This document shows, piece after piece, positions 142 through 50,388 of a stretch of DNA of 58,206 nt. The notes beneath the pieces are model-generated. The model ran no database searches, had not been told where the DNA came from, and saw nothing but the letters and a program-made list of their open reading frames with translations. This DNA comes from a virus. The DNA lies in IMG/VR virus record IMGVR_UViG_3300017744_005100, positions 1-58,206 of that record. The stretch is one strand, 5' to 3'. How positions within the stretch are numbered: the first letter of the stretch is position 1; every line of letters begins with the position of its first letter. A program made the position numbers and the translations under genes.

Positions 142-542
142 TCTTCAACCTCAACGATCTCCAATCCGAACTCATCAGCTAGAGCATGTAGTCTTTCTTC
201 TTCGGGCATAGAAACGATCTCTTTTATTCTTTTCTTTTCTTGGCGCTTTATTTTCTCGCCCTTTTCTTTCTTCATTTCATCGACTGCCTGAACAGCAACC
301 TTAAAATCATGCTGTGCTCTGGTCTTCTCTTTAATCTCTTCTTCGTGGGAGTCATTCAGAACTTTGATCTCTTCTTCGTTCTGTTTAACCTTGCCTTCGT
401 AGAGGCTTCTGAAATAATCTTTATCTTTTACAAAAAACTTATGGAGGACAAAGCCAATTATTATTAAAGCCCCTGCCCACCAATAGTTTTTTATGTAAGT
501 CCAAATTTTCTTTAAAATATGTTTAGCTGTTAGCCAAGTCAT
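138..542 (-). CDS. Membrane-anchored coiled-coil protein, i-spanin-like candidate
   Basis: This 134-residue protein has one membrane segment at about residues 20-38 (WWAGALIIIGFVLHKFFV). After it comes a long, highly charged Lys/Glu-rich helix, about 45-108, predicted by eye to be coiled coil, and a short acidic C-terminal tail. An N-terminal anchor with an external coiled coil is the layout of Rz-type inner-membrane spanins, but many phage membrane proteins share it. Its start overlaps the stop of the 64-residue gene by one base (TAATG), and its stop overlaps the start of the signal-peptide gene (ATGA). Translational coupling of three small membrane or secreted proteins suggests a lysis cassette. 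That role is inferred from context; no sequence motif proves it. Confidence 0.65.
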   Translation of the reverse strand: MTWLTAKHILKKIWTYIKNYWWAGALIIIGFVLHKFFVKDKDYFRSLYEGKVKQNEEEIKVLNDSHEEEIKEKTRAQHDFKVAVQAVDEMKKEKGEKIKRQEKKRIKEIVSMPEEERLHALADEFGLEIVEVEE

Positions 543-736
543 TACTTACCTTTGAAACGGGCTACAACATCAACGAAGCCCTGTGTGCCGACATATGCTG
601 AAGCAATGATTACCCACTGCTCGGAATCTACTTTATCAGCAAGAAGTAGTCCTGTTGTTGTTAGCCATACCAAAAGTTTCTTTGATACAAATCTTTCTAA
701 GTGCCTATCGGCAAATGCTTTTACTGCTGCCACCAT
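542..736 (-). CDS. Small hydrophobic protein, holin candidate
   Basis: This 64-residue protein has two moderately hydrophobic stretches, at about residues 20-34 (LLVWLTTTGLLLADK) and 41-57 (WVIIASAYVGTQGFVDV), and charged ends. The ATG is preceded by a good ribosome site (AGAGAGGG, 4 bases before the ATG). Its size, its hydrophobicity and its place next to a membrane-anchored coiled-coil gene and a secreted gene fit a holin. However, the hydrophobic segments are short and I recognise no holin family. It could equally be an unrelated small membrane protein. Confidence 0.55.
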   Translation of the reverse strand: MVAAVKAFADRHLERFVSKKLLVWLTTTGLLLADKVDSEQWVIIASAYVGTQGFVDVVARFKGK

Positions 737-757
737 TTTACCCTCTCTGGTTAGTTG

Positions 758-820
758 TTAACCGCAGCAGCAATCGCAGCCGCAGTTGTTTTCACATTTA
801 CAATTATTACATCCACACAT
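758..820 (-). CDS. 20-residue cysteine-rich micro-protein (9 Cys)
   Basis: A complete short frame reads MCGCNNCKC-ENNCGCDCCCG and ends in TAA. Nine of the 20 residues are cysteine (positions 2, 4, 7, 9, 13, 15, 17, 18, 19), arranged as repeated CxC and CxxC pairs as in metallothionein clusters. The ATG is preceded by GAGGA with a 7-base spacer, the ideal distance. That site overlaps the TGA stop of the SbcD-SbcC gene, so translation is probably coupled. The frame fills almost the whole interval before the next gene, whose own ribosome site follows its stop. The genome is otherwise packed, which argues that the interval is a gene. Binding of Zn, Cu or Fe by the cysteines is inferred; no homologue is known to me. 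Confidence 0.7.
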   Translation of the reverse strand: MCGCNNCKCENNCGCDCCCG

Positions 821-827
821 TTTTTAT

Positions 828-832
828 TCCTC
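828..832 (-). promoter_or_regulatory. Ribosome binding site of the cysteine-rich micro-gene
   Basis: GAGGA lies 7 bases (ATAAAAA) upstream of the ATG at 820 and overlaps the TGA stop of the upstream gene at 831-833. This site is the main reason for calling the 20-codon frame a gene. Confidence 0.75.
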
Positions 833-3800
833 ATTGATTAACAAATGCATATCCGTCATCTGTTTTAGAGATTTCGACTGTCATATCGACAACATCTTTC
901 AAACTCTCTATGTGAGTAATTAGTAAAGTAACATCAAAATACCCTTTTACAAGGTCCAAGATCCTGACGAATCCTTCCATGTTTTCAGCATCCAAAGCAG
1001 TGCCCGGTTCATCAAGGATAAACAAGTTGCTCTTCGGCATATTGCTTACATTTAGTAGGGCAATTCTAATAGCAACAGCAGCTAGTGTTTTCTCTGCTCC
1101 CGAACAAGTTTCAAGTTGCCGTGGGTCGTGCTTTGGGTGTTTGATTAGAATGTTTAATTTATTCTCGCTATTCTCAAAGAATACCTCAAAGTCAACAATG
1201 TTAGACAACACTTTCGCGATCTCTGTATTGATGACTGGTAAAGCCTTCTTGATAACATCGAAAGCAATGCCGTTAGAATGCATACATCTCATGAAGAGGT
1301 CATAAGCTGAGTATTCAGTATTTAACCTAAATCTCTCTTCTTTAAGATCCTTTAAATTTTGTAATTTTTGTTCCAAAGCCCCTTCTTTACCAACAAGCTG
1401 ATAGATCCGGTCTTCACAATCTTGTAGCTCTTGTTCAGTTCTTTCTTTATTAGTCTTAGTTAGTTCCATTTCTGAAACAACTTTTTCCATGTTTTCTAAT
1501 ACTTCTTTGTGTTCTTCATAGTAATCTGCTGTTTCATTTAGTTGTTCGATTTCACCTTCCAACTTTTGGATAGCTGTATTTGTTCTTTCTAATTCTAAAT
1601 TTAAATTAGCTATATTACTTTGCTCATCTTTTATTTTTTGAGTTAGCTGAGTCCAGTTATTAATTGTTTTGCTGACTTTATCAACATCAATGTCAGACAA
1701 CTCCCCTGAATTCAACTGTAACTTATTTTCAACCTCAGCCAAGACCTTTTGAGTGATTGTCAGATCTTGTTTAGCTCCATGAGCATCTTTAATAAACTTA
1801 CAAGAAGTTAAATACTTATCACCACATGGGATATCAGTTAGTATTTTGATCTGTCGGAGGCTTGTCTCCCTCTCTCTTTCTTGCTTTTCTTGTTCTCGGA
1901 GTAGTTTTTCTACTCTATCTTGTAACTCATCAGCCTCTTCTTTTTGTTGGCTCAAGCTCAGGATGTCGATAGACTCTAATAGAACACTACCTTTTTGTAG
2001 AAATTCTTCTTTGCTTGTGATTTGTTTTGTTAGATCCCTAACTTTATTTTTTAAAACTTTTTTATTTTCGCCAGCCTTCTCCAAGTCCTTTCTAACTTTG
2101 CGAATAGAGATCGGCTTTTCCAGTATCTGTGATAGACTCTTTTGTAAAGCAGCGATTTCTTCTTCTACAGAACTCAAGTCTTCTTTCAAACTAGAACAAT
2201 GATTCTTCTGTTTGGCTACCGCTGCTCCAGCTTTAAAAATATCATTCTTTGTCTTTTTGATATCTTCATCATAATCCACATCTTGGATTCTTCGTAAAGC
2301 TCCTCGTAAATCAGAAGCATCTTCTTTTGCCAACTTGAACTTCCGTTCAAAGAACTCTAAGTCAAGGAACTTAGCAAGGATCTCTTTACGCTTTGTTGAG
2401 CCCTCGTTGATATAATTCAAAGAACCAAGCTGTGAAGCCATAGATGTCAAAAGAAAATCATCTAAATCACCAAATACATTACGAATGGCTTTATCTGTAC
2501 TGCCTCTAGCTGTCTGATTTAGAGAACCTACTTCTCCCGATACTTCGTCCACATAGTCAAAGTCCGCTTGTGTCTTAGCCTCGTTTGTGACCTTGCCTTT
2601 AAGCTTCTTAGTGTATTTATCCGATCTGCGACTAATTTTGTAAGTCTTGTTGTTAGCTTCAATCTCCACCACACCAGATCCATAATCTTTGTTCTGGTTA
2701 ATAATGTTGTATGTTTTTCTAATGTTCTTAGAAGTATTATTATAAATTGTGTAGAGTAGTGCATCAACAATGCTAGATTTTCCACTGTAGTTCTTACCAA
2801 AAATTCCGACAGTGCCAGACAGCTTATCAAAATCAAGAGAATTATTTTCTCCATAATTGAATAAATTGTCCCAATTAAACTTTTTAATCCGCCAATGAAC
2901 ATTGCGGGAAATATCTTCACTCTCTTCAACAACTTTGTTATACTTTGAATTAAGAGCGAAGACTTCATTTAGTGTATCCTCCTCGACATTATAATCTTTA
3001 AGGTACTCTTTAATTAGATCTTGTTGTGTCTTCTCGTCTCGTAGATTTTCGAATAGCTCAGAACTTACACGATCTTCCACCGATAAATCGCCGCTGTTGG
3101 CTTTATTTAAGAAAGTGATACTCTCGGGCTTAAATCGATGCTTCGCGATGTCTACAGCCCTTCTCAGCCGTTCTAAGGCTATGTTAGACTTGGATACCAA
3201 TCTTAGTCTCGCACCATCTGGACATTTAAATCCTTTTGGGATTCTACCTGATTTGGTCAAGTTAATTGTGACAAAAGGTTTTGGGTTTATGAAGTCAAAC
3301 TTTTCTCTTGTGAACTCTGTCTTGGACTTAATGTCCCAGATAAACATACCCTTATCTTGGGTTTCACCAAAGTTTTGCTGAATAGTTGAACCAGCATAGG
3401 CAATTGTACCTTCTTTATTTAGAATCTGAGTCTTATGAATGTCCCCAAGCATTGAATAATCGCAGTCATCGAAGATATCGATGCCGTGATCGCCGTGCTC
3501 CATAACGAAACCAATGTCTGTTCGGCTATATTTGATAGCGCCATGGTAAAGCCCAATGTTAATTTTATCATGATTACTTGGCTTAACCCAATTATCTTCA
3601 TCAAACACCGATAAAGTGTTAAGACAAAAATTATCATCTAAGTGAGTTTCGCCAGCATACTTCAATAAGTGTAGATTCTTATGTCCCAAGGCATCAACAA
3701 TAGGTGTAATGGCATCTTGACGGTAAGAATTTCGTAAATTGCCATCATGATTGCCTAAAATAACATAAGTTGGGGCAATATCTGCCATATTTTTGAGAAA

Positions 3801-3986
3801 ATCAGAGCATAATTCGACAAATTCTGGTGAAATTTGTGTCTTTGTGTGGGCAATATCACCGCAATGGATGATATAATCGACCTTCTGTTCCCTCAAAGTT
3901 TGGTATAATTGCTGAAAAACAGCCTTATATTCCTTGTGATATTTTAAATTTTTGATGTGTGTGTCTGCTATATGAGCAAATTTCAT
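831..3986 (-). CDS. Fused SbcD-SbcC (Mre11-Rad50) recombination nuclease/ATPase
   Basis: This 1051-residue protein joins a Mre11/SbcD-type metallophosphoesterase to a Rad50/SbcC-type ATPase; T4 makes these as separate proteins, gp47 and gp46. The nuclease half, about 1-350, has D8-x-H10, GD44, GNHD 78-81, H148 and GDIH 181-184. The ATPase half starts near 365, with Walker A at 397-405 (GKNYSGKSS). Next come long coiled coils at about 550-900, then the signature CSGAEKT at 961-967, Walker B with LDEP at 991-994, and H1025. At the coiled-coil apex, C721 and C729 stand where the zinc hook belongs, but as Cx7C and not the usual CxxC. In T4 the pair resects DNA ends for recombination-dependent replication. 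The start overlaps the primase stop (TAATG), so primase, resolvase and this gene form one replication/recombination operon. Confidence 0.93.
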   Translation of the reverse strand: MKFAHIADTHIKNLKYHKEYKAVFQQLYQTLREQKVDYIIHCGDIAHTKTQISPEFVELCSDFLKNMADIAPTYVILGNHDGNLRNSYRQDAITPIVDALGHKNLHLLKYAGETHLDDNFCLNTLSVFDEDNWVKPSNHDKINIGLYHGAIKYSRTDIGFVMEHGDHGIDIFDDCDYSMLGDIHKTQILNKEGTIAYAGSTIQQNFGETQDKGMFIWDIKSKTEFTREKFDFINPKPFVTINLTKSGRIPKGFKCPDGARLRLVSKSNIALERLRRAVDIAKHRFKPESITFLNKANSGDLSVEDRVSSELFENLRDEKTQQDLIKEYLKDYNVEEDTLNEVFALNSKYNKVVEESEDISRNVHWRIKKFNWDNLFNYGENNSLDFDKLSGTVGIFGKNYSGKSSIVDALLYTIYNNTSKNIRKTYNIINQNKDYGSGVVEIEANNKTYKISRRSDKYTKKLKGKVTNEAKTQADFDYVDEVSGEVGSLNQTARGSTDKAIRNVFGDLDDFLLTSMASQLGSLNYINEGSTKRKEILAKFLDLEFFERKFKLAKEDASDLRGALRRIQDVDYDEDIKKTKNDIFKAGAAVAKQKNHCSSLKEDLSSVEEEIAALQKSLSQILEKPISIRKVRKDLEKAGENKKVLKNKVRDLTKQITSKEEFLQKGSVLLESIDILSLSQQKEEADELQDRVEKLLREQEKQERERETSLRQIKILTDIPCGDKYLTSCKFIKDAHGAKQDLTITQKVLAEVENKLQLNSGELSDIDVDKVSKTINNWTQLTQKIKDEQSNIANLNLELERTNTAIQKLEGEIEQLNETADYYEEHKEVLENMEKVVSEMELTKTNKERTEQELQDCEDRIYQLVGKEGALEQKLQNLKDLKEERFRLNTEYSAYDLFMRCMHSNGIAFDVIKKALPVINTEIAKVLSNIVDFEVFFENSENKLNILIKHPKHDPRQLETCSGAEKTLAAVAIRIALLNVSNMPKSNLFILDEPGTALDAENMEGFVRILDLVKGYFDVTLLITHIESLKDVVDMTVEISKTDDGYAFVNQ

Positions 3987-37228: not shown

Positions 37229-37418
37229 TGTTATAAGCCTCTTGAAGTTTTTCAAAAAGATTTTCCATTTCAGAAACACAGAAAAATCTATTCCAAAATT
37301 GTTGTTCTTCTTCTCTTAGGCATTCTTTTAATATATTGTTTTTGTCTTTTATGTATTTTTCAAGGTGTTGTAACAAAAACTTAGCTTCTTCTTTTTTTAA
37401 AGTAATGCTATCTCCCAT
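37221..37418 (-). CDS. Small helical protein, unknown function
   Basis: This 65-residue protein (start MGDSITLKKEEAKFLLQ) is predicted to be helical, with one cysteine near the middle and another at FFCVSE. I chose the ATG at 37418 because AGGA sits 5 bases upstream. The ATG at 37424 has its only possible site directly against the start codon. It overlaps the end of the cupin gene and its stop overlaps the zinc-ribbon start. No family recognised. Confidence 0.6.
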   Translation of the reverse strand: MGDSITLKKEEAKFLLQHLEKYIKDKNNILKECLREEEQQFWNRFFCVSEMENLFEKLQEAYNNA

Positions 37419-37755
37419 AGTCATCCTGTAGCCTGACAAGATCGTCAAGTTCTGGAGTGGAGACTTCAAAAAGCTCTACTGGGGCATTATGAGGTGCTGT
37501 GAATCTATGAATAGTTTTTGGAATAATCCTCCACGATTGTCCCTCTTCAAGCTTCACAACATTACTTTCAAGATCGTTTGTTGATAAATCTAAAAGCAGT
37601 GTTCCCTTGAGAACAAACACTGTTTCATCTTTTTTTACATGAAACTGTCTTGAAAGACGTTGACCTTTATTAATATAAAGTTTTTTCATGACATACTTGT
37701 CAGTATGAATGATAATTTCTTCATGTCCCCATGGTTTATCAACAATTTTATTCAT
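37408..37755 (-). CDS. Cupin, mannose-6-phosphate isomerase type II-like
   Basis: This 115-residue stand-alone cupin begins MNKIVDKPWGHEEII and has GQRLSRQFHVKKDETVFVLKG, a histidine-containing first cupin motif. A second motif IPKTIHRFTAP follows, and it ends DDLVRLQDDYGR. The opening PWG, the RLS-Q-H core and the closing DDYGR are hallmarks of the isomerase domain normally fused to GDP-mannose pyrophosphorylase (ManC). That enzyme interconverts fructose-6-phosphate and mannose-6-phosphate on the path to GDP-mannose. It lies next to the sugar cassette, which includes a GDP-mannose 3,5-epimerase, so a mannose-supply role fits. The ATG at 37755 gives an eight-base overlap with the previous stop. 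Confidence 0.8.
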   Translation of the reverse strand: MNKIVDKPWGHEEIIIHTDKYVMKKLYINKGQRLSRQFHVKKDETVFVLKGTLLLDLSTNDLESNVVKLEEGQSWRIIPKTIHRFTAPHNAPVELFEVSTPELDDLVRLQDDYGR

Positions 37756-37942
37756 GAACAAACTCTGATTGTTGCTCTCCAACCTTAAAAGTTGGTGGGT
37801 TTGTAACGACTAATTCATCTTGGGAGTCACCCTGAATTGTAAAATTAAATTCTTTTAAAACTGGTACAATGTCTGATTGTTCCAATAGTGATTTTTGAAG
37901 AGCCATCATTACGGCTCCTAGTGCTTGATCTGATAGTTTCAT
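37748..37942 (-). CDS. Small conserved phage protein, unknown function
   Basis: This 64-residue protein begins MKLSDQALGAVMMALQKSLL and has a beta-type C-terminal half (ELVVTNPPTFKV). I recall near-identical N-termini in small proteins of other large myoviruses, none with a known role. The stop overlaps the cupin start and the start lies one base after the epimerase stop. Confidence 0.65.
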   Translation of the reverse strand: MKLSDQALGAVMMALQKSLLEQSDIVPVLKEFNFTIQGDSQDELVVTNPPTFKVGEQQSEFVHE

Positions 37943-37943
37943 T

Positions 37944-38945
37944 TTATCCCCTTATCTGTTCTTCTATCCAATTAAAGGTTTTTTTCATCCCTTCTAAAAG
38001 TGATTGTTTGTAATCCCAATTTAAATTTTCTCGTATTAGTTGGTTGTCACTGTTTCTACCCCTAACCCCGATTGGGCATGGGAAACCATATTTATCAAGA
38101 AATTCTTGTCCCTTTATATTATGTATTGTAACATTTTTATCAGAAATATTAATAGCCATTTGTGCAAAATCATTAATTGCTATCATCTCTTCTGAACCTA
38201 TGTTGACCGGTCCATTAAAATTTGGACTGTCCATTAATCTACGAGTTGCTTCAATACACTCATCAATGTATAGAAAGGAGCGAGTTTGTTTGCCATCCCC
38301 CCAAACTTCTATTGTTTCTCCATTTTTTGCCAGAGCGGCTTTTCGACAAAAAGCAGCAGGAGCTTTTTCGCGACCATTATTCCATGCCCCTTCTGGTCCA
38401 AATATATTGTGATATCTTGCAATTTTTACATTTAGCCCATAATTTCTTGAAAATGCAAGCCACAATCTTTCTGAAAATAGCTTTTCCCAACCATATTCAG
38501 AGTCTGGATTTGCTGGATATGCAGAATCTTCTTTACAATTTGGATTGTTTGGATCTAACTGGTTGTGCTCTGGGTACATACATGCAGAAGATGAGTAGAA
38601 AATTTTCTTTATTCCCTTCCTTACACACTGTTCTGCTACATTTAGATTAATCATGGCAGAATTGTGCATAATATCTGCATCGTTCTCTCCGGTAAAAACA
38701 AAACCAGCACCGCCCATATCAGCAGCAAATTGATAAATTTCATCTAAGTCTTCTGTTATTACTTCACCACAAATTTTTGGATCACGAAGGTCACCAAGAA
38801 TAAATTCATCTGCGGTGGCTTTGATATCAAAGAACTCATGTTCACTTATATCAACACCTCGGACCCAATGCCCTTCGCTTTTTAATCTTTTTACCATGGC
38901 GCCGCCAATAAATCCACCGGCTCCACATACTAATATTTTTTTCAT
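37944..38945 (-). CDS. GDP-mannose 3,5-epimerase
   Basis: This 333-residue extended SDR enzyme has an N-terminal NAD site, GAGGFIG (8-14), and the GDP-mannose-3,5-epimerase landmarks. These are ADMGGAGFVFTGE, SSACMYPEHNQL with catalytic C122, YGWEK (Y151, K155), and REKAPAAFCRKA. The plant enzyme has the same SSAC-YPE and KAPAAFCRKA blocks. The enzyme turns GDP-mannose into GDP-L-galactose or GDP-L-gulose. The ATG at 38945 is preceded by GGGGA 6 bases upstream; a TTG start 18 bases earlier has no such site. With the cupin downstream it suggests a GDP-hexose branch separate from the dTDP branch. Confidence 0.9.
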   Translation of the reverse strand: MKKILVCGAGGFIGGAMVKRLKSEGHWVRGVDISEHEFFDIKATADEFILGDLRDPKICGEVITEDLDEIYQFAADMGGAGFVFTGENDADIMHNSAMINLNVAEQCVRKGIKKIFYSSSACMYPEHNQLDPNNPNCKEDSAYPANPDSEYGWEKLFSERLWLAFSRNYGLNVKIARYHNIFGPEGAWNNGREKAPAAFCRKAALAKNGETIEVWGDGKQTRSFLYIDECIEATRRLMDSPNFNGPVNIGSEEMIAINDFAQMAINISDKNVTIHNIKGQEFLDKYGFPCPIGVRGRNSDNQLIRENLNWDYKQSLLEGMKKTFNWIEEQIRG

Positions 38946-38959
38946 TTTTTTTCCCCGTT

Positions 38960-39736
38960 TCAAAGAAGCAACCAGTTATCAGGAATCAAGTCTTGAGTGT
39001 TGTACAACTCTTCTTTACTACTATGAAACCAGTTTTTTGGAGCAGCGATCTTTTTGTGCTCATTGCTGTTTAGCCATGCACCCCACCAACTAAAACTACT
39101 GTTTGCTATAATATTGTTTTTGCACATTGACATTATATAAAGGTCTATATAATCTTCTTCTTCAATAATTTTAAAATTTCCTTTTTTAAATATGTTTTTA
39201 CACCACTCTTTGTCATCACTAAATACCATATAAATGTCAGTTTTAGGCAGTTTTTTAATTGCCTCTGCATAATATTTTGGAGTACAAAGAGGATTAAAGT
39301 CAGGTATGGTTATGTAATCACCTCTTCTTATATGTATTGATGTGGCTTTTTTATTCAAATCTTTACCGTATTTTTCTTCTATGTATTGTTTAGTTTGCAA
39401 TGACGGCTTAAACATTTTTTTTATTTCTTTTTCACAATCTTTGAAATATTTTTCTGATTGAAAATATCCTTTCAAGCACATGTTTTTTGTATAAGCTATT
39501 TCTTTATAAGAAAAATGAGGCTCGTTATAAGTTTCTGAATAGCTTGTGTTCTCCTTAAATGTGACATTTCTAAAAATATTGTCTAAATAATTTATTGCTT
39601 TTCTTCCCTGTTGTGGGAGATCGTGGCGTTCTAAATCAAAAATTGGTTCATCTTCGTTTCTCCAAGCTAATGCTGAAGCGGCGGCGATTTGAAACATTTG
39701 ATTTCCTAATCCACCTTGTAGATTACAAGTTATCAT
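38960..39736 (-). CDS. Alpha-1,2-fucosyltransferase-like (GT11)
   Basis: This 258-residue protein has the family landmarks GGLGNQMFQ (8-16), HIRRGDY (135-141) and NSSFSWWGAWLN (212-223). GT11 enzymes transfer fucose from GDP-fucose to the 2-position of galactose, and some use other GDP or dTDP sugars. The HxRRxDY motif binds the nucleotide sugar. The length is near the usual 270-300. The ATG overlaps the RmlD stop. It is the first of two GT11-type genes here; the other lies at 42801-43712. The sequence does not settle which sugar and acceptor it uses, and no GDP-fucose synthesis genes are in the window. Confidence 0.9.
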   Translation of the reverse strand: MITCNLQGGLGNQMFQIAAASALAWRNEDEPIFDLERHDLPQQGRKAINYLDNIFRNVTFKENTSYSETYNEPHFSYKEIAYTKNMCLKGYFQSEKYFKDCEKEIKKMFKPSLQTKQYIEEKYGKDLNKKATSIHIRRGDYITIPDFNPLCTPKYYAEAIKKLPKTDIYMVFSDDKEWCKNIFKKGNFKIIEEEDYIDLYIMSMCKNNIIANSSFSWWGAWLNSNEHKKIAAPKNWFHSSKEELYNTQDLIPDNWLLL

Positions 39737-40440
39737 TCGTCGTTCTCCATATTTAAGCTAACATCTTGTGGTATTGGAAAATCTAAATCTTCTATTTTAA
39801 TCTTTTTAACATGCGGGTTTCTTTCTTTTGCTATTTCATAGATGCTTCTACGGCGGGAGCCAATATGAGTAATGCCCTTTTTATTACTCTTTACTGCTTG
39901 TAGCACTTTCAAAGATATAACATCTACATAATCTTTTGTAGTCCACTGATTTGTGCAAGCTTTTTCATACGGAAAACTGTGTCCGAAAAAAGAAGTTCTG
40001 ATGATTAAATGATTGTCGTATGTCCTTACCAACAACTCTGCGGCGCCTTTTGTTTTAGCATATTTTGATAATGGATTAATACCATCATTTATACTATAAT
40101 TCCCTTTTTTACCATCAAAAACATAGTCTGTTGAGATATACACTAATTTTGTTTTTTTCTTTTTACAAGCCTTAATTACATTAATAGTGCCAATAACATT
40201 AGTTTCTATGCAGGCATCTGGACTTTTTTCTGCTAGTTTCACATCTGTAAAAGCTGCTGCATGTACAACAATTGATGGTTTTATGTCCTCTATCGTTTTT
40301 AAAACTTGGCTATAATTTAAAATATCACACTCTGTATGTGCTGGTGCATGAATATAAGGTGCTAATTTTAATAATTCTTTCCCTAATAGTCCAGACCCTC
40401 CCGTTAAAAGTATTTTATTTTGAGAGTCTGTTAAAACCAT
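39733..40440 (-). CDS. rmlD: dTDP-4-dehydrorhamnose reductase (RmlD)
   Basis: This 235-residue SDR has the NADPH site GGSGLLG (14-20), HAAAFTDVKLAE, STDYVFDGKKG and catalytic Tyr127 and Lys131 in SKYAKTKGAAE. RmlD performs the last step to dTDP-L-rhamnose, reducing the 4-keto sugar made by RmlB and RmlC, which are the next two genes upstream. It is shorter than typical RmlD (about 290 residues) because part of the C-terminal substrate-binding region is missing. The set B, C, D without RmlA means that dTDP-glucose must come from the host or elsewhere in the genome. Confidence 0.85.
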   Translation of the reverse strand: MVLTDSQNKILLTGGSGLLGKELLKLAPYIHAPAHTECDILNYSQVLKTIEDIKPSIVVHAAAFTDVKLAEKSPDACIETNVIGTINVIKACKKKKTKLVYISTDYVFDGKKGNYSINDGINPLSKYAKTKGAAELLVRTYDNHLIIRTSFFGHSFPYEKACTNQWTTKDYVDVISLKVLQAVKSNKKGITHIGSRRRSIYEIAKERNPHVKKIKIEDLDFPIPQDVSLNMENDE

Positions 40441-41321
40441 TTATATAAACCCTTATTTTTCTTTGGAGACCATCCCAAACTTCTCAGTTTTTGATTGTCA
40501 ACGGCATATCTTAGATCTTGACCCCAGCGATTTTCTACAAACTTTATCATTTCTTCATTTGAATCAAACCATGACAAAATTGTTTTAGCAACCTCTATAT
40601 TTTGCATATAATTTTGAGAAGAAATGTTGTAAATTTCATTTATGTTTTCGCTCTCTATGATCTTAAAAATACCATCAACATTATCTTTAACATATAACCA
40701 ATCACGAACATAGGTACCATCTCCATGCAAAGGTATTTTTTTGTTTCTTTTAATTCTAGAAATGCATTTGGGGATTAATTTTTCTTCAAATTGTCGAGGA
40801 CCATAATTGTTACTACTTCTAGTAATAACATAATTTATTCCATAAGTTCTGCTATATGCCAGAACTAACATTTCTGCTGCCGCTTTTGTAGCAGAATATG
40901 GATTGCTTGGATTTAATATGTCGCTCTCTTTAAATTCTCCCTGTAGAATATCTCCATACACTTCGTCAGTACTAATATGAAAAAACAAAGGTCTTTCATA
41001 AGAGGCTTTTCCTCTGACTAGTTCTAACAAATTGTGTACACCATCTATATTGCTCTTTATAAAGGGCATTGTATCATTAATTGAATTATCAACATGACTT
41101 TCAGCAGCAAAATTTATTAAAAGTTCACAGTTTGGAAGATGTGTTATCTCGCTTATATCTGCCTTTATAAAAGAATAGTTTGGATGTTTATCCCACGGTA
41201 AGTTCTTATTTGAGGCATATCCCATTTTATCTATATCAATTATTTCGTGCTCTTTATTTAAAGCCTCTTCTACAAAATGGCTCCCGATAAATCCTCTTCC
41301 GCCAGTAACAACAATTTTCAT
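40431..41321 (-). CDS. rmlB: dTDP-glucose 4,6-dehydratase (RmlB)
   Basis: This 296-residue extended SDR has GGRGFIG (7-13), FAAESHVDNSI, STDEVYGD with the D119-E120 catalytic pair, Y142 and K146 in YSATKAAAE, and RSSNNYGPRQFEEKLIP. The DE pair and the SHVDNSI block mark dTDP-glucose 4,6-dehydratases. It makes the 4-keto-6-deoxy sugar used by RmlC and RmlD, and by many other deoxysugar paths. It is a little shorter than the usual 340-360. A good ribosome site (AAAGGA) lies 6 bases upstream of the ATG. Confidence 0.93.
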   Translation of the reverse strand: MKIVVTGGRGFIGSHFVEEALNKEHEIIDIDKMGYASNKNLPWDKHPNYSFIKADISEITHLPNCELLINFAAESHVDNSINDTMPFIKSNIDGVHNLLELVRGKASYERPLFFHISTDEVYGDILQGEFKESDILNPSNPYSATKAAAEMLVLAYSRTYGINYVITRSSNNYGPRQFEEKLIPKCISRIKRNKKIPLHGDGTYVRDWLYVKDNVDGIFKIIESENINEIYNISSQNYMQNIEVAKTILSWFDSNEEMIKFVENRWGQDLRYAVDNQKLRSLGWSPKKNKGLYKWF

Positions 41322-41332
41322 TTTTTTCCTTT

Positions 41333-41863
41333 TTAAAATTTTGGTCTTTTCTTATATTCAGAAAAACTTTTAGAGTTTAAATCTTTTTTTGATAAAACTC
41401 TTTTATGTTTAGGAGTTAACCATGGTATTGACAACTCTTTATCAAAGGGGTTAATTCCACTCTCACCTTTTGAATTATAAAAACTTGTACATTTATATAA
41501 AACGATGTTTTCGTCTCCTAGACTTTCAAATCCATGGGCAAAGCCGGGTGGTAACCACAAAATCTTTTTATTAGCATCGGAAAGCAAAATAGATCCCCAC
41601 TTACCATAAGTTGCAGAATCTTTTCTTATATCAACATAGTAGTCTATGATTGAACCGGTTACCACTCTTATTAGCTTTCCCATAGGCTTATCCCATTGAT
41701 AGTGAAGTCCTCGTATGACATGCCTTTTGGAGTACGAATGATTATCTTGGTAAAAATCTTCTTTTAAATCTTCATATATTTTCTTACTAAATGGCTCAAA
41801 AAAGCACCCTCTCTGGTCCTCGTGAACAATCGGCTCAAAAATTTTTACCCCTTCTAATATCAT
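41333..41863 (-). CDS. rmlC: dTDP-4-dehydrorhamnose 3,5-epimerase (RmlC)
   Basis: This 176-residue cupin epimerase has the landmarks HEDQRGCFFE, RHVIRGLHYQ with catalytic H54, and LPPGFAHGFESL (H110), then YKCTSFYN. RmlC inverts carbons 3 and 5 of the RmlB product before RmlD reduces it. The gene order C, B, D downstream of it fits one operon. The ribosome site is weak, and a short 38-base gap separates it from the GT17-type gene before it. Confidence 0.93.
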   Translation of the reverse strand: MILEGVKIFEPIVHEDQRGCFFEPFSKKIYEDLKEDFYQDNHSYSKRHVIRGLHYQWDKPMGKLIRVVTGSIIDYYVDIRKDSATYGKWGSILLSDANKKILWLPPGFAHGFESLGDENIVLYKCTSFYNSKGESGINPFDKELSIPWLTPKHKRVLSKKDLNSKSFSEYKKRPKF

Positions 41864-41901
41864 TCTAATTTTACAACTTTACTAATTTTTGGTTATAAGT
41901 A

Positions 41902-42792
41902 TTATATAACTTTTTTTATCAGTTGTTCATACCTTGCTTTGTTTTTTATTAAATATTCTGGGTATGTTTTATCCATATCGACAACTGTTAACGACCCTCT
42001 AAAAAACGGATCTACATTGTTCTCTATGTTTTTTTCCACAGACTCAAACACTCTCTTATCAACTAAATCAACTGCTGAATAAGATGTTATTTTCTTTTTT
42101 ACACGGTCGGCACCGCCCAAAAAACTAAAATGCCAGCCACCATTTTTAATAGTAAAATTCTCTTGTGCACGCAACTGATTGTAGGAGAAGTTTTTTAAAT
42201 TTTTGTATGCCCCCATTCGTGAGCCACCCCAGTTGTTTTCTTTTAACACATTAAGATAGTAACAATAAAATTTCTGATTAAAGGTAAAAAATTTATCTGC
42301 ATGCCCAGTGTCATAAATACGATGCAATTGTTCTAAAATTTTTGGATTTGGAATTTCATCAGCATCTGAAAATATAATCACATCATCATCTTCGCAATTA
42401 ATTAAGCCTCTTCTAACACACTCTTTTTGAAAAAAATCTCTACCATAATCTTGCTGTGTGTGAACATTAAACCTTTCTGTTTGAGTGTTTATAAAATTAT
42501 ATATCTTATTTAGTTCACACTCATCATAGGTTTTTGGATGTTCTATTATAGGCAAATTTACAAAATCACTCGGTGTGTCCTCTATTTTTAGATGTATTAT
42601 TTTATGAAGAAACTTACTAAACATGTGTTTATTTTCATCAAAATAATATGGTTTTGGTTTGCCAGTATGAGTGACATTTGCCTCCGAAATAACAAAAAAA
42701 TCTACATAGTCATCCAATATGTTTAAACGGAGTTCTAGTAATTCTAATTCATTAAAAAAACAAAAACAATCGTATACTTTTCTTTTTCTCAT
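41902..42792 (-). CDS. Glycosyltransferase family 17-like
   Basis: This 296-residue protein begins with the GT17 block VYDCFCFFNELELLELRL and then VISEANVTHTGKPKP. It has the metal-binding SDADEIPNP (142-150) and a later HFSFLGGADRVKKKI, all typical of GT17 (beta-1,4-GlcNAc transferases of the MGAT3 family and bacterial and viral relatives). It would add a HexNAc-type sugar to a glycan. Acceptor and sugar cannot be read from sequence. It lies between a GT11-like gene and RmlC. Confidence 0.87.
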   Translation of the reverse strand: MRKRKVYDCFCFFNELELLELRLNILDDYVDFFVISEANVTHTGKPKPYYFDENKHMFSKFLHKIIHLKIEDTPSDFVNLPIIEHPKTYDECELNKIYNFINTQTERFNVHTQQDYGRDFFQKECVRRGLINCEDDDVIIFSDADEIPNPKILEQLHRIYDTGHADKFFTFNQKFYCYYLNVLKENNWGGSRMGAYKNLKNFSYNQLRAQENFTIKNGGWHFSFLGGADRVKKKITSYSAVDLVDKRVFESVEKNIENNVDPFFRGSLTVVDMDKTYPEYLIKNKARYEQLIKKVI

Positions 42793-42800
42793 TTTAAATT

Positions 42801-43712
42801 TTATTCACTCCCATACATGGCATAAATGTGGGAATTGTCTTTTTCATATTGTTGTTTTTCACTTAAGCAATCATCATAACTGAACATGTCACCATTTCTG
42901 TCCAAATATTCCCACCCCTTTGTTAGAGAGTCTCCTTGTGCCCAAAATCCATCTGATACATTATGTCTTGCCCAAAATTTAGGTGCAATAACATTTTTTA
43001 CACCGTCATTTATCCATGTTGCAATCCATGCAAAACTAGAATTAGACATTATGATGTTTTGAGCATTTCTTATCAATATCCAGTCGGCTTGTGTATTATA
43101 ATGATATACATCTAGATTTGGAAAAAACATTTTAGCGGTTCTAGGATCATCTGTTACAACCTTAAACACCATATTTGGATTCCGGCTTTTCATAATGTTC
43201 ATTGCATTGTACCAGTATGATGGCGGTAGAAAAAGTTCATTAACTCCTACATACTCTCCACCACGAAACCCTAATATACAGATATCTGGACTTGAAAGAC
43301 CATAATATTGTTTGTCTTCCTTTATTTTAAACCATTTTCTTACATCATCTTTGTAGCCCTCTAAATATTTTTCGGACTCCATATTTCCGTCTATTTTAGT
43401 GTTATCAAGGATATTAACAAGACCTGGATCATAGAGTCTACAATCACATTGATAAACTGGGTGGATTAATGATTTTTCTTCATAATACTTTTCGATACCC
43501 TCTGGCAGTGTGATTGGCGGTCCACCTTCAGGTCCATCACCACCAACAACCTCGTTACCAAAATCTAAATTAAAAATTTTAGATGCTTTAAACTTATGCG
43601 GATTCATTATTCCAAAATCATATCCATTTTTTAAAGCAATAACTCTCGTTACTGTATATCTCCACAATTGGTTCCCAAGACCAGATCCATTGTACAATTC
43701 ATTAACTATCAT
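42801..43712 (-). CDS. GT11/fucosyltransferase-like protein
   Basis: This 303-residue protein is a second fucosyltransferase-type enzyme. It has GSGLGNQLWRY near the start, ICILGFRGGEYVGV where GT11 has HxRRxDY, and IIMSNSSFAWIATWIND, matching the NSSFSWWGAWLN block. The Arg-Gly-Gly-Glu variant of the HxRRGDY motif suggests a distant branch with a different donor or acceptor. I took the ATG at 43712 because AGAGAGG is 5 bases upstream and it gives an ATGA overlap; the GTG at 43718 has no site. Similar 'fucosyltransferase-like' proteins occur in large marine viruses. Confidence 0.78.
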   Translation of the reverse strand: MIVNELYNGSGLGNQLWRYTVTRVIALKNGYDFGIMNPHKFKASKIFNLDFGNEVVGGDGPEGGPPITLPEGIEKYYEEKSLIHPVYQCDCRLYDPGLVNILDNTKIDGNMESEKYLEGYKDDVRKWFKIKEDKQYYGLSSPDICILGFRGGEYVGVNELFLPPSYWYNAMNIMKSRNPNMVFKVVTDDPRTAKMFFPNLDVYHYNTQADWILIRNAQNIIMSNSSFAWIATWINDGVKNVIAPKFWARHNVSDGFWAQGDSLTKGWEYLDRNGDMFSYDDCLSEKQQYEKDNSHIYAMYGSE

Positions 43713-44524
43713 TTGCACCTCTCTAGAAGGTTATAATCCTTCATCTCTTGTAATTGCTCTTTAATCGTTTTATCTGTTTTTGTTTTTACAAAATTAGAAA
43801 ACAAATCTCTATACACATGGTGTTCTGTATTGTGTTCATTTATTTGTAATTGTAAATTATAAACATCACTTATTTGTTGCAACAATTCATTTTTTGAAAC
43901 AGTATTTTTTGAAAAAAAATGTTTTACACCCTGCCAATAATCATTTTGTAAATTAATTGTTTTTATTACTTTTGCTAATTCTAGGCAGGTCACACCGTTC
44001 CATAAGTGATTTATATATCCATGTACAGATGTTGCTTTTTTTGATTTTGCCCACTCAAGTAATGAGACCTTGTTAAACAATTCCTCACCAATAATTGAAG
44101 TACGAATGATTGTTAAATTAGGATTCTCTCCCAAAGACTTTGTTTTGCCATAGTCATCTAAGCAATCATGTAGGTCATTCTCAGTATATTGTCCTTTATG
44201 CCCACTAAAAACACAATCAGTTGTTATATGAATCACATTACACTGTTTTTTATTTTTAAAATCAGCTAATATATTTGGGAACAAGCTATTAACTTTTATC
44301 ATTTCGAATAAACTAACATCTCTTTGTTTTATAACACCAGCAGCATTAATTATTAAATCTTCTTCTTTTACATGTTTGTTTAAAAAATTTATTATTTCTT
44401 CTTTAGATGATAATGAAATATCCAAGTCTCTTCTTGTGAATTCCACAACCTTATGAGTTTGACCCAAGTAAGAGCTAATGTAGGAGCCAAGCATACCATT
44501 TGATCCAAATAATATTATCTTCAC
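43709..44524 (-). CDS. RmlD-like sugar reductase (SDR)
   Basis: This 271-residue SDR has GSNGMLG near the start, NAAGVIKQRDVS, HITTDCVFSGHKGQYTEND and the YGKTKSLGE catalytic block. The 'CVFSG' and 'YGKTK' forms are typical of RmlD relatives that reduce 4-keto deoxysugars attached to dTDP or UDP. Its start overlaps the stop of the CapE/PseB-like gene (ATGA). In L-QuiNAc/L-RhaNAc and FucNAc pathways such a reductase follows that dehydratase, so it may make a UDP-2-acetamido-2,6-dideoxy-hexose. The exact product is not decided by sequence. Confidence 0.78.
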   Translation of the reverse strand: MKIILFGSNGMLGSYISSYLGQTHKVVEFTRRDLDISLSSKEEIINFLNKHVKEEDLIINAAGVIKQRDVSLFEMIKVNSLFPNILADFKNKKQCNVIHITTDCVFSGHKGQYTENDLHDCLDDYGKTKSLGENPNLTIIRTSIIGEELFNKVSLLEWAKSKKATSVHGYINHLWNGVTCLELAKVIKTINLQNDYWQGVKHFFSKNTVSKNELLQQISDVYNLQLQINEHNTEHHVYRDLFSNFVKTKTDKTIKEQLQEMKDYNLLERCK

Positions 44525-45456
44525 AACTCCTCCTTAAAATAATTGTTTGTTTGCAAGTATTGTTGTAGTTCTTCCATTGTTAAACAGCAGGTGTTTGACG
44601 AATATTCACCACTAGAAAAAGTTACTGTTCTGAATGTCTTTTGAGGGTGCAAAAGATATATTTCTTCATCTTTAATTTCTTCCATTCTGGGTACCTCTTC
44701 CGAAGAAGCCATTATTTCATGGATCTTTTCACCTGTGCGGGGCTCAGTTACTTCATACTTTAAACCAAACTCTTTTCTGTATATTTCAAACAAGTCATGG
44801 ATTTTAAATGATTTAGCCTTTGGTATGATATTGCAGTGACTGTATTTCATAGATTTCAAGACTAGATCTACGGCATGGTCAGCAGAAATTAAAAATCTAG
44901 TCATTTCTGTTCCATAAAGTTGTAACTTTCCATCACTTCTTATTGTTTTCCATATTAATGGTATAATAGAACCAGTTGATGCTGTTACATTGCCATAAAT
45001 TAAAGAGGTTAGATTGCAATTAGACTTTCCGCTAATAAACCCTTCTCCAGCAACAAACTTCATTGCACCGTAAATTGTTGTGGCTCCCCTGCTTTTGTCT
45101 GTTGAAATAAAGCAAGCCGCCTTAAAATTGTTTTCTTCTGCGGCTAGCCGTGAATTAAAAGCACCATCTATAATTATTTTAGATGCCTCTTCATAGTTGT
45201 CATTACATGCTTCTATTTGTTTTAATGATGCTGCAAAAATACCAATGGTGTGACCTTTAGCCTTTCTAATTAAAAAGTCTCTATTTCTAATATCCCCAAT
45301 AATGAAATTAACTTTTGGAAACTGTTTTTTCATATAATAATGTTTTGATTCATCACGAGAATAAACAGTTATTTCATTGTGTTCATACAATCTTTTTACT
45401 AAATTCTTACCTAAAAATCCAGCGCCGCCAGTTATAAATATTTTTTCGCCCTTCAT
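44521..45456 (-). CDS. UDP-GlcNAc 4,6-dehydratase-like (CapE/PseB/WbjB family)
   Basis: This 311-residue SDR has GGAGFLG (10-16) and VYSRDESKHYYMKKQFP, typical of the CapD/PseB branch, and IGDIRNRD. It also has ISTDKSRGATTIYGAMKF with Y129 and K133, the STDK signature of UDP-GlcNAc 4,6-dehydratases with or without 5-epimerase activity. It makes a UDP-4-keto-6-deoxy-HexNAc for a further reductase, probably the next gene. The usual CapE-type partners CapF and CapG are absent, so either the RmlD-like neighbour serves or the path ends at a different sugar. Confidence 0.82.
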   Translation of the reverse strand: MKGEKIFITGGAGFLGKNLVKRLYEHNEITVYSRDESKHYYMKKQFPKVNFIIGDIRNRDFLIRKAKGHTIGIFAASLKQIEACNDNYEEASKIIIDGAFNSRLAAEENNFKAACFISTDKSRGATTIYGAMKFVAGEGFISGKSNCNLTSLIYGNVTASTGSIIPLIWKTIRSDGKLQLYGTEMTRFLISADHAVDLVLKSMKYSHCNIIPKAKSFKIHDLFEIYRKEFGLKYEVTEPRTGEKIHEIMASSEEVPRMEEIKDEEIYLLHPQKTFRTVTFSSGEYSSNTCCLTMEELQQYLQTNNYFKEEL

Positions 45457-45465
45457 ATAATTAAC

Positions 45466-46197
45466 CTATTTGTATTTTTCTGTAACTTCCCAGTCACATG
45501 TGAACATTGTATACAAGGCTCTTTCTAACAAGTGAGCCTCTGCTGGGGCAGTGCCAGTTCGATTCCAGCTAATGTACTCCATCATTTTCCTATAAAATTT
45601 CTTACTATATCTTAAAAGTCTATCTTTTGGAATGATATAGTTTCCACCGGGGGAAAAACGAACATATTGGTTTATGTCTGGATTGACATAAACATCTTTA
45701 AAAAAATCATTTAAATTTGAAAAATGTCTCCAAGGTGCATGGTGCATGTACCAGCTATTATTGATTTCTAAAAATCCCCCGTCATGGTCCATCTTACTAG
45801 CTGGTATTGGAGATCCAGCATAAGGGGCATGTGCTTCTATTCCAAAGTCGTGTATTTCTGTAAAAAAATTATTGTTAATAATTTTTAAAAAATGTTGTTC
45901 ACTGCAATTTCCACTAGATAAAGGTTTTTCTCTTCCCTTTGGGAACATTAGACATGCTCTACAAAATGCTGTTACATCTGGTAGATTATTATAATTTTTA
46001 TATGCAAAATAAAAAATATCAAAAATGTTTTGTCCAACATTTATCTGATGTTTTACTTTCTCTGTTTCCTCAAAGCGGTGTGCTCTGTCGTATATGAGAT
46101 AATTGTCTGATAATTTATGCACCCAAGATTCTTCTAAATCTTTTGGAAGCCAATTATAATCACTTACAACTAAAAAATTTGTTTTAACATGCTTCAT
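45466..46197 (-). CDS. DUF3431-like protein of sugar cassette
   Basis: This 243-residue protein has a C-terminal block VRFSPGGNYIIPKDRLLRYS followed by KKFYRKMMEYISW and then LLERALYTMF. The order of pattern (PGG-F/Y, R, Y, ERxxxxxF) is that of DUF3431, a family often found with glycosyltransferases. The N-terminal half has HDFGIEAHAPYAG and a Trp/His-rich stretch. Function is unknown; a transferase-type role in the same pathway is inferred from company. Confidence 0.65.
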   Translation of the reverse strand: MKHVKTNFLVVSDYNWLPKDLEESWVHKLSDNYLIYDRAHRFEETEKVKHQINVGQNIFDIFYFAYKNYNNLPDVTAFCRACLMFPKGREKPLSSGNCSEQHFLKIINNNFFTEIHDFGIEAHAPYAGSPIPASKMDHDGGFLEINNSWYMHHAPWRHFSNLNDFFKDVYVNPDINQYVRFSPGGNYIIPKDRLLRYSKKFYRKMMEYISWNRTGTAPAEAHLLERALYTMFTCDWEVTEKYK

Positions 46198-46923
46198 CTA
46201 CTTTATAATCCCATAATCATTAAAATTAAATCTTTTTGGATAAGTGCCCGGTAGATAGCGATGAAAACCAAATGGTTTTTTGACAGCCTCTGTTTCTGGG
46301 CATGGTTCTTCATGTGAAAATCTTGCTGCCAACTCTACTGGGGCAAATTTGCAGCCATGTTTTTCAAATAAGTGCTTATTGTGTACACATATGTTACCGT
46401 CTTCGTTATAAGCACCGGCATTCATGTGCTTATAAAAATTTCCCTGGTTGACTTCAAATGGAATATTTTCAATAGAAGGGACATTAAGGAGCTTTTTACT
46501 TCTTAATGTAAAGCCTCCGTTGCCGACCCTCTGGTGATTACCATATGGATCAATAAAAGCATTATCACTTATCTGCCATGGTGCCCCAATATAATCCCAC
46601 TCCAAAAACTCATCAGTCCATGAATCTGCATTTATTACAAAACCATCAGGGTGAATCATAAGCATATAATCAGTGTCTACATGCTCAACTAGTTTGTAGA
46701 TACAGTAATAACTAAATTCTTTATATGTTATGTTTTCAAAGCCTTTAAATTTTTCAAAAACAATACCTTTGGGCATTTTTTTTGGTTCTTTATGAGAAAT
46801 AAACTTTACAGCACCAAAATCAATATGTTTCATACTAACTTGTAATGCTGCTAAGTTTTCTTGAATTTGGGTTGATCCAAGAGCCAACATAGTTACATTC
46901 TGTAATTGTATCTTACTTTTCAT
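46198..46923 (-). CDS. DUF5672-like glycosyltransferase-type protein
   Basis: This 241-residue protein has LMIHPDGFVINADSW, then DEFLEWDYIGAPWQ and RVGNGGFTLRSKKLL, the three blocks of DUF5672. The family is found in lipopolysaccharide and viral glycan clusters and has a GT-A-like fold by analogy. HPDGFV sits where the metal-binding acid of GT-A enzymes would be. The start overlaps the end of the GT2-type gene by 11 bases and the stop directly abuts the next start. Confidence 0.78.
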   Translation of the reverse strand: MKSKIQLQNVTMLALGSTQIQENLAALQVSMKHIDFGAVKFISHKEPKKMPKGIVFEKFKGFENITYKEFSYYCIYKLVEHVDTDYMLMIHPDGFVINADSWTDEFLEWDYIGAPWQISDNAFIDPYGNHQRVGNGGFTLRSKKLLNVPSIENIPFEVNQGNFYKHMNAGAYNEDGNICVHNKHLFEKHGCKFAPVELAARFSHEEPCPETEAVKKPFGFHRYLPGTYPKRFNFNDYGIIK

Positions 46924-47602
46924 GCTTTCCTATCGACATGCTTATTTCTTTAGCCTTCCTTTTAGGTGGTATTAAATGTGTCATTTGTTTATCCCATAAT
47001 CTTATTGCAACCGTTTTTTCATTTAAGATTTTAGGTGGACCAAAATTATCATGTAACCTTTTATAGTAATCAATATCAACTGCCCAAATCATTTTTTCAT
47101 CAAACATTAGTAAACTATCATCGTTTCTTACTGATAATACACTCGGGTTACCTATTGTATTATTGCCAGTATAAATTTTTTCGTTATAAACTGGTGTCTC
47201 CTCATTAAAGAAATTTTGTCCATCATGAGTGTGTGCATAGGATGTGACTAACCATTTTGTTTCATCATCAAAGGAGTCTTCAATTTTTTGTAAACTGTTA
47301 TCATCCCATAAAAAATCATCTTGATATAAAATTTTAATTATTTTTCCAGTGCAACGTTGCATTGCCTTGTTTGTGTTAAAAGTAAAATTACCTCTTTTTT
47401 CTCTATTTCTTTCATATTTTACTGTGAAATTATCTGTTTTATAATTTTTGCAAAAATCTTCTATTGCATCAGTTTTACTGTGATCCGAAATAACCACCTC
47501 AAAATTTTTATAAGTTTGAGTTTCAAATTTTTCAAAATGATGACTTAAAAACTCAACCCCTCTTCCAAAGGACTCATACACTGGCATTGCTATTGATATC
47601 AT
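46913..47602 (-). CDS. Glycosyltransferase family 2 (GT-A)
   Basis: This 229-residue protein starts ISIAMPVYESFGRGVEFL, a GT2-type opening. It then has FEVVISDHSKTDAIEDF and ILYQDDFLWDDNS, where DD takes the place of the metal-binding DxD. The short length lacks the C-terminal extension of many GT2 enzymes. It transfers a nucleotide-linked sugar to a growing glycan; donor and acceptor are unknown. The ATG overlaps the RfbH-like stop. Confidence 0.83.
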   Translation of the reverse strand: MISIAMPVYESFGRGVEFLSHHFEKFETQTYKNFEVVISDHSKTDAIEDFCKNYKTDNFTVKYERNREKRGNFTFNTNKAMQRCTGKIIKILYQDDFLWDDNSLQKIEDSFDDETKWLVTSYAHTHDGQNFFNEETPVYNEKIYTGNNTIGNPSVLSVRNDDSLLMFDEKMIWAVDIDYYKRLHDNFGPPKILNEKTVAIRLWDKQMTHLIPPKRKAKEISMSIGKHEK

Positions 47603-48942: not shown

Positions 48943-49033
48943 ATGTTTTCATTCCTCTAAAGTAAGTTACTTTATAGCCTCCCGCAAATTTTACTATAAC
49001 ATATTTTGCCTTTTTGTTTAACTTAACCTTCAG
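48935..49033 (-). pseudogene. Possible C-terminal remnant of a lost gene
   Basis: In the gap before the RfbH-like gene, one frame is open for 32 codons without a start codon and reads like protein (AKYVIVKFAGGYKVTYFRG, then MKTYE). It ends in a TGA that overlaps the RfbH start by eight bases, the same overlap style as true neighbours in this genome. This is what would be left if a gene that once preceded RfbH had been replaced by the dioxygenase gene. Chance cannot be ruled out at this length. Confidence 0.3.
48959..48973. repeat. Short perfect inverted repeat in the 80-base gap
   Basis: AAAGTAAGTTACTTT is a 7+1+7 palindrome lying 17 bases before the RfbH start, in one of the few gaps in the cassette. 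A one-base centre cannot form a hairpin loop, so it would be a protein-binding site if anything. It lies inside the possible gene remnant and may be chance. Confidence 0.3.
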
Positions 49034-49694
49034 CTAGCTTGTTAAAGATTTTATAATATTCTCCAATTATAAATCTTTTTTGAGAGGTTACAGATGATTT
49101 AGATTGCCCGGTATATTTGCTTAATGGCATAACTCTAAAATCAAAAGAAACACGAGTACGGTCTTCTTCATTAACTTTATTCCCGTGCTTGCAGCGGTTG
49201 CCATCAAAAAATACATACTCTCCGTAATTCATCTCCATTGGCGAGAAATCTTCTAACCCTGGTACTGACTCAATCCAAGTTGCTTGGGTTTTTATCATTT
49301 TAGTTAGAGGGACTTGAACATTTATCTCCCATGGAGGATGCTTGTGTATTGGATCTGAATCATAATGCCACTGGTGAATAGCTTTGTAATTTGGGATGTG
49401 TATACGGAATGTTGGAAAAGACTGATAAATAAAATCTTCCTTAAAATACAATGAAATTTCATTTTTTATAAAATCTTCATACGATTCTATAAGACTAGTC
49501 CATGGAGAATTTAGTTTTTTATAGAATAATTCATGAAACTTTGTCCTTGATTCATTTGAAAAATCTAGTTTTTGAGGTGGTAACAAATCTTTGCGATTAA
49601 TATGAAGCAGCGATAAATCATCAACTTCAAATGTTTTTGACACTAATTCAGCAAATCTGTACTTGTCAATATTGTATTGTATTCTTTTATGCAT
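49023..49694 (-). CDS. Fe(II)/2-oxoglutarate dioxygenase-like, StrG-type
   Basis: This 223-residue protein has IHQWHYDSDP, giving H110-x-D112, a distal His170 in KHGN and an Arg at 179 or 181. This is the HxD...H...R layout of Fe/2-oxoglutarate oxygenases. The overall form, with YGEYVFFDGNRCKHGN, resembles StrG-type proteins of aminoglycoside and deoxysugar clusters. It may hydroxylate a sugar or a carrier. The ATG at 49694 has AAGGA 11 bases upstream; a GTG at 49721 has no site. It follows the short DegT-like gene. Confidence 0.7.
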   Translation of the reverse strand: MHKRIQYNIDKYRFAELVSKTFEVDDLSLLHINRKDLLPPQKLDFSNESRTKFHELFYKKLNSPWTSLIESYEDFIKNEISLYFKEDFIYQSFPTFRIHIPNYKAIHQWHYDSDPIHKHPPWEINVQVPLTKMIKTQATWIESVPGLEDFSPMEMNYGEYVFFDGNRCKHGNKVNEEDRTRVSFDFRVMPLSKYTGQSKSSVTSQKRFIIGEYYKIFNKLAEG

Positions 49695-49708
49695 GACTAT
49701 TTCTATCC

Positions 49709-50368: not shown

Positions 50369-50388
50369 TTTTTTCTCTCTTAATTTTT

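Follow-up and report, generated by a model that had tools for sequence, protein, structure and literature searches.

Introduction

The beta domain of vertebrate metallothionein binds three divalent ions with nine cysteines (M3Cys9), and the copper metallothionein of Neurospora crassa, about 25 residues long with 7 cysteines, shows that a peptide of such size suffices for a metal-thiolate cluster. The bacterial metallothioneins SmtA and BmtA (PF02069) are about 55-60 aa in length, adopt a zinc-finger-like fold and employ histidine ligands. In the open-access literature, we found no paper on a phage or viral metallothionein or on a phage peptide of the kind described here, and none that joins metallothionein, virome and auxiliary metabolic gene. 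Phage-encoded IscU and A-type carriers have been described as marine auxiliary metabolic genes (PMC5332604, PMC9038755), in articles whose text contains neither metallothionein nor a Cys-rich micro-gene; some of the phages considered below that carry a six-Cys peptide have iscU directly upstream of it.

The subject of this report is a 20-residue peptide encoded in a 58,206-nt stretch of DNA from a marine-type phage (IMG/VR record IMGVR_UViG_3300017744_005100, hereafter the window), together with related viral peptides. Like the vertebrate beta domain, it carries nine cysteines in a short, aromatic-free stretch with CxC and CxxC repeats, and mammalian metallothionein contains a stretch, CKCKECKCTSCK, to which the six-Cys phage type CKCKDCKCNPCKC is similar. 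In contrast to the full vertebrate protein, the phage peptide is 2-3 times shorter, has one domain, is phage-encoded and ends in the cysteine order CxCxCCC; profile and PDB searches with member peptides detected no homology to vertebrate metallothionein. The N. crassa protein is similar in size and likewise rich in CxC, whereas it is fungal, spaces its CxC pairs differently and has no established sequence relationship to the phage peptide. The N-terminal CxCxxCxC spacing of SmtA/BmtA equals that of the phage peptide, but these bacterial proteins are longer and possess a fold and His ligands, and neither PF02069 nor any other Pfam family was matched by the window peptide (E up to 1) or by related peptides (E up to 10) in searches whose sensitivity is low at 20 aa.

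A cysteine-rich micro-gene downstream of sbcDC

An earlier, sequence-only reading of the window had proposed a 20-residue micro-gene with nine cysteines (45%) in CxC/CxxC spacing, preceded by a GAGGA ribosome site that overlaps the previous stop codon and nearly filling the interval between two genes, and each of these features was confirmed (Table 1). The cysteines follow the order C-x-C-x2-C-x-C-x3-C-x-C-x-CCC, and cysteine makes up 0.87% of the residues encoded by the other genes of the window. The peptide contains neither an aromatic residue nor histidine, and so has the composition by which metallothioneins are recognized (small and Cys-rich, with CxC, CxxC and CC motifs and no aromatics or His). 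GAGGA and ATG are separated by the 7-nt spacer ATAAAAA, the micro-ORF occupies 63 nt of the 94 nt between the flanking genes, and its stop lies 21 nt before the ATG of the next gene.

Table 1. Features of the window around the micro-gene, and one distant gene series
Feature	Position	Strand	Remarks
64-aa protein, downstream of micro-gene	542..736	(-)	one hydrophobic segment; no family match
Space between flanking genes	737..830		contains micro-gene
Micro-gene, MCGCNNCKCENNCGCDCCCG	758..820	(-)	20 aa, 9 Cys, ATG to TAA
Shine-Dalgarno GAGGA of micro-gene	828..832	(-)	overlaps upstream stop
TGA stop of 1051-aa SbcDC-like gene	831..833	(-)	overlapped by GAGGA
1051-aa SbcDC-like protein, upstream of micro-gene	831..3986	(-)	profile matches
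Long series of sugar-nucleotide, glycosyltransferase and aminotransferase-like genes	37408..55485		between head/tail and other genes

The micro-gene had been placed between recombination and lysis genes, and the first of these labels stands. The upstream 1051-aa protein combines an N-terminal calcineurin-like phosphoesterase (PF00149, 1.2e-13) with a C-terminal SMC/Rad50-type ATPase (PF02463, 6.3e-8; PF13476, 2.7e-7), so that SbcD-like and SbcC/Rad50-like parts are fused in one frame, in contrast to T4, in which gp47 and gp46 are two genes. The fused frame is common in such viral contigs, with about 80 relatives in IMG/VR. The lysis label is unproven: the 64-aa protein matched no family in Pfam, PHROGs or NCBIfam, and to call it a holin is a guess that draws on its hydrophobic segment and its context.

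Chance was gauged with 300 dinucleotide shuffles of the window, which gave on average 0.023 ATG-started ORFs of 13-32 aa with at least 35% Cys per shuffle and a maximum Cys fraction of 0.385. The real window contains one such ORF, with a Cys fraction of 0.45 and a Shine-Dalgarno sequence.

Conservation among phages carrying sbcDC

Relatives of the SbcDC protein were retrieved from IMG/VR without reference to the peptide, and the micro-gene proved to be intact in at least 10 other IMG/VR records. Intact, in-place copies among the SbcDC-retrieved relatives occur in L003, L009, L019, L053, L063, L067 and L072; L002 holds the first part only, as its contig ends within the micro-gene, and pattern scans added further intact copies in L204 and L206. 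All nine cysteines are kept, and residues 5 (N/D), 11 (N/K) and 12 (N/D) alone vary, alongside synonymous changes (GGA/GGG, GAA/GAG, AAA/AAG and AAT/AAC). No copy has a broken frame, and the Shine-Dalgarno sequence is retained as GAGGA or AAGGA in every relative, with a spacer before the ATG that varies slightly in length. It had been proposed that broken frames or lost cysteines in relatives of the same gene order would speak against a real gene; in such relatives the frame is instead unbroken and no cysteine is lost, substitutions being confined to positions between the cysteines.

In the same comparisons, the adjacent sbcDC differs at 17-51% of four-fold sites and retains 83-99% amino acid identity, whereas the DNA directly beside the micro-ORF is less diverged, at roughly 8-13% for the window versus L063 as read by eye. 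For this reason the close clade alone constitutes a moderate test. Within it, the 3′ half of the micro-gene is nearly invariant even at synonymous sites, which could reflect a local RNA constraint or local recombination. In the window, each of the five Cys codons of this half is TGC, against a genome-wide count of 116 TGT to 48 TGC, and relatives show scarcely any synonymous variation at them.

Four close relatives (L010, L040, L051 and L066) lack the micro-ORF, which is cleanly absent and not decayed: CCAGAGAGGATA and the 64-aa gene's ATG come immediately after their sbcDC stop. In a phylogenetic tree, L010 and L051 nest among carriers of the micro-gene, which suggests that it has been lost.

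More distant copies were found in L330 and L349, whose peptide, MCGCENCKCEKLCGCSCCCGDK, is encoded directly before a homologue of the window's 64-aa gene. In these phages SbcDC is far diverged from that of the window and is followed by an extra gene of 244 or 260 aa, and the start region of the micro-gene reads TGAGGATAA(A/G)AAATG, with the same Shine-Dalgarno sequence. Synonymous TGT/TGC changes occur at the cysteines of these deep homologues (in L349, C7 is TGC and C17 is TGT). L330 was found with a pattern that forces the first six cysteines only, so that its CCCG tail, its synteny and its Shine-Dalgarno sequence were all unforced by the search.

That the frame is open by chance and has no function might be argued from its very short length and its absence from some close relatives. 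Its conservation, synteny and Shine-Dalgarno sequence, the shuffles and its recurrence across phages (below) all contradict this explanation, which we find barely credible and regard as refuted by the intact copies in diverged relatives, in which changes are confined to non-Cys and synonymous sites. Judged by these patterns of substitution, the frame is a real, conserved phage gene, as had been proposed, and it is presumably translated.

A wider viral set of cysteine-rich micro-peptides

The cysteine pattern, by its recurrence in other viral DNA, places the window peptide in a large viral set of Cys-rich peptides of 14-24 aa, of which the earlier reading was unaware. The set is defined by an ATG-Cys start, the motif CxCx2CxC, a length of 14-24 aa and a Shine-Dalgarno sequence, all of which the window peptide displays. 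A nine-Cys form has the signature M-C-x-C-x2-C-x-C-x(2-3)-C-x-C-x-CC-x(0-1)-C, which is common to 20 aligned peptides from types A, B, D and E, whereas the six-Cys form (type F), MCKCKDCKCNPCKCK, has no Cys run. Type B comprises MCGCDVCVCTQDCNCGCCCWEE in L202 and L209 and MKECECEACVCTQDCNCGCCCWEE in L158 and L175, with one Trp near the end and a gene order unrelated to that of the window; type D is MCNCKECNCGTSCECTCCNC, type E is MCECKQCECESCNCSCCEC, and L213 carries MCECETCMCTKDCNCGCCCWD at a contig end.

These peptides were collected with patterns of cysteine spacing. A broad viral scan for ATG-Cys-x-Cys-x2-Cys-x-Cys-x(2-4)-Cys-x-Cys returned many ORFs of 14-24 aa among the matches listed; the listed matches of a looser scan were poly-Cys repeats, and the stricter patterns were adopted. 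In-frame and out-of-frame control matches were compared by Shine-Dalgarno sequence and stop placement, their raw counts not being comparable. Among the matches listed, a Shine-Dalgarno sequence preceded 36 of 53 non-repetitive in-frame matches of one spacing and none of 22 controls, and a stop codon fell within 12 codons in 47 of the 53 and in 11 of the 22, where the 53 include near relatives of one another and are not 53 independent cases. The set as a whole is mostly Shine-Dalgarno-led, whereas the type D ORFs mostly lack this signal.

Because the patterns force the cysteines that they seek, cysteine conservation among the loci so retrieved is a biased measure. The search placed no demand on the last three cysteines of types D and E, yet all are present, in a mixture of TGT and TGC codons. 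At the type E locus, L282 and L284 are 97% identical in the downstream genes and 83% identical in the upstream genes; most inter-Cys residues of their peptides differ and one codon has been inserted, while all nine cysteines are retained. Such a pattern is the one expected of selection acting on a cysteine lattice. Across L282, L284, L240 and L283, which represent one locus, neighbouring genes are up to 97-98% identical and the micro-peptide differs at most non-Cys residues, an unusually fast turnover between fixed cysteines.

Pattern scans of the type suggested in the earlier reading recovered the wider set. The tblastn search of the peptide against phages gave no match and is a weak test, limited by low-complexity masking. 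The window peptide matched nothing in Pfam, PHROGs, NCBIfam or PDB, and several member peptides matched nothing in PDB and the profile libraries, in searches with HMMER that serve short, low-complexity queries poorly. A scan of 84,980 prokaryote species genomes for the nine-Cys pattern yielded Cys-repeat or chance frames only, none of which resembled the phage micro-ORFs. No relative of the window DNA or of the 64-aa gene was found among cultured phages, where SbcDC matches are distant (best, Microcystis phage Mel-JY01, 30%), and all carriers found are metagenomic phages. Members of the set may already be present, unnamed, in catalogues of small phage genes (e.g., Fremin et al., 2022). We attribute the escape of a recurrent phage gene class from annotation to its falling under gene-finder cut-offs, being masked in BLAST and being invisible to profile libraries.

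Relation of the micro-ORF to the downstream gene

The micro-ORF stands directly upstream of a gene and has three consecutive Cys codons near its end, as would befit a regulatory leader that senses the supply of Cys-tRNA, with ribosomes that stall on or complete the TGC-TGC-TGC run altering RNA structure at the start of the 64-aa gene and the peptide being discarded. Polycysteine leaderless uORFs are known from mycobacteria (Canestrari et al., 2020, cited in PMC9094748 and PMC13236596), and they are likewise short, Cys-rich ORFs that precede a gene and end in a Cys run. The window ORF differs from them in being Shine-Dalgarno-led, lying inside an operon, having conserved CxC spacing and giving no structural sign of attenuation; the location of its Shine-Dalgarno sequence within the stop of the upstream gene argues against leaderless translation.

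In the best fold for this part of the window, UUGCUGCUGC is base-paired with GCAGCAGUAA, which lies where the next gene begins; this 10-base complementarity is also legible in L330 and L349, and the leader model would also accord with the near-exclusive use of TGC at the 3′ cysteines of a TGT-preferring genome. However, the MFE folds of L330 and L349 do not use the complementarity, and pairing of the next gene's ribosome site does not exceed that of synonymous recodings in any of the four sequences, the observed value being reached by 32% of recodings for the window, 86% for L063, 94% for L330 and 93% for L349. By this comparison, control of the next gene by RNA structure is unsupported. Moreover, an attenuator requires Cys codons but not the CxC-x2-CxC spacing, which recurs across contexts, and other members of the set lack a Cys run (MCKCKDCKCNPCKCK) or stand 77-118 nt from the next gene. 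We therefore consider a leader function unlikely.

Gene neighbourhoods of the set

Members of the set occur in about a dozen neighbourhoods, which include genes for thioredoxin, IscU, FAD/NAD oxidoreductase, holin or endolysin, and packaging. Type B ORFs (MCGCDVCVCTQDCNCGCCCWEE/MKECECEACVCTQDCNCGCCCWEE) are preceded by a gene for a tail-fibre-assembly-like protein or a 2OG-Fe(II) oxygenase and followed immediately by a thioredoxin gene (PF00085, 5e-28); in L158 (4867-5629) and L175, a tail gene is directly followed by the oxygenase, the Cys-rich micro-ORF and thioredoxin in succession. In 7 loci, the type F ORF and the end of phage iscU (NifU_N, 6e-51) overlap, and in an eighth the ORF lies 342 nt after the gene. 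In the clade represented by L259 (1443-1860), L236, L242 and L339, the six-Cys micro-ORF shares 8 nt with the iscU end, and a gene for terminase follows close downstream; L236 also has an IscA-like gene. Type D lies near a holin (phrog_3427, 3e-32) or M15 endolysin (phrog_894) gene, with many of its loci 111-118 nt before an FAD/NAD oxidoreductase gene, and other members adjoin terminase, portal, head protease or cytidylyltransferase genes.

The proximity of types B, F and D to thioredoxin, IscU and oxidoreductase genes, respectively, would be consistent with a redox or thiol partner whose cysteines shuttle disulfides or sulfur for these phage proteins and do not bind metal. Against this, different phages have different partners, and no such neighbour exists at many loci, among them that of the window. 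The peptide is found in 8 of the 80 nearest IscU loci, all of them within the nearest 11 and none among the next 69; the IscU link thus belongs to one phage group, and we reject it as a general explanation. Types B and F may serve in redox or sulfur transfer, a role for which the window offers no local support, and for the peptide at large we hold the redox account to be distinctly unlikely. As read from gene content, the factor common to these neighbourhoods is the late-type gene region and not a single partner.

A very small, Cys-dense, phage-encoded peptide whose inter-Cys residues turn over fast might also mature into a modified, secreted or antimicrobial product (RiPP-like or membrane-active) or act as a small inhibitor of a zinc or iron-sulfur protein of the host. 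The peptides have no leader region, however, and no modification or export gene recurs in their neighbourhoods, and we judge this explanation highly improbable.

Discussion

The reading that we find best supported is metal binding, because the CxC/CxxC spacing, beyond the cysteine content itself, recurs in unrelated phages and contexts. In chemical terms, 20 residues that include nine cysteines in CxC/CxxC order and no aromatics form a metal-thiolate ligand, and we propose a metal and thiol buffer: the window peptide is, on balance, likely to be a micro-metallothionein-like peptide that holds metal as thiolates and is probably produced late in infection. The micro-gene would be expressed from the sbcDC/late transcript, with Shine-Dalgarno initiation coupled to the upstream stop; the nine thiolates would wrap a small metal-thiolate cluster of about three divalent ions, such as Zn, on the analogy of the vertebrate beta domain, or several Cu(I); and the peptide would serve, while infection lasts, as an expendable buffer of metal and thiols. 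That the peptide binds metal, which metal it binds, when it is made and how the phage benefits are all predictions from the cysteine pattern and the gene context.

For the set as a whole, we see an even prospect that tailed phages encode a widespread, undescribed class of micro-metallothioneins, 14-24 residues in length with 6 or 9 cysteines, in late, lysis, packaging or redox neighbourhoods, with the cysteine lattice as the only conserved feature. If so, genetically encoded metallothioneins would have their smallest representatives here, and phages would manage metal ions directly during infection. Should the peptides bind metal, they would give phages a direct means of balancing metals or thiols in the cells they infect, and the metallothionein principle would be reduced to 14-20 residues in a simple, testable peptide system. 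Where they stand beside phage iscU and thioredoxin genes, it becomes testable whether infection is linked to iron-sulfur supply and thiol balance.
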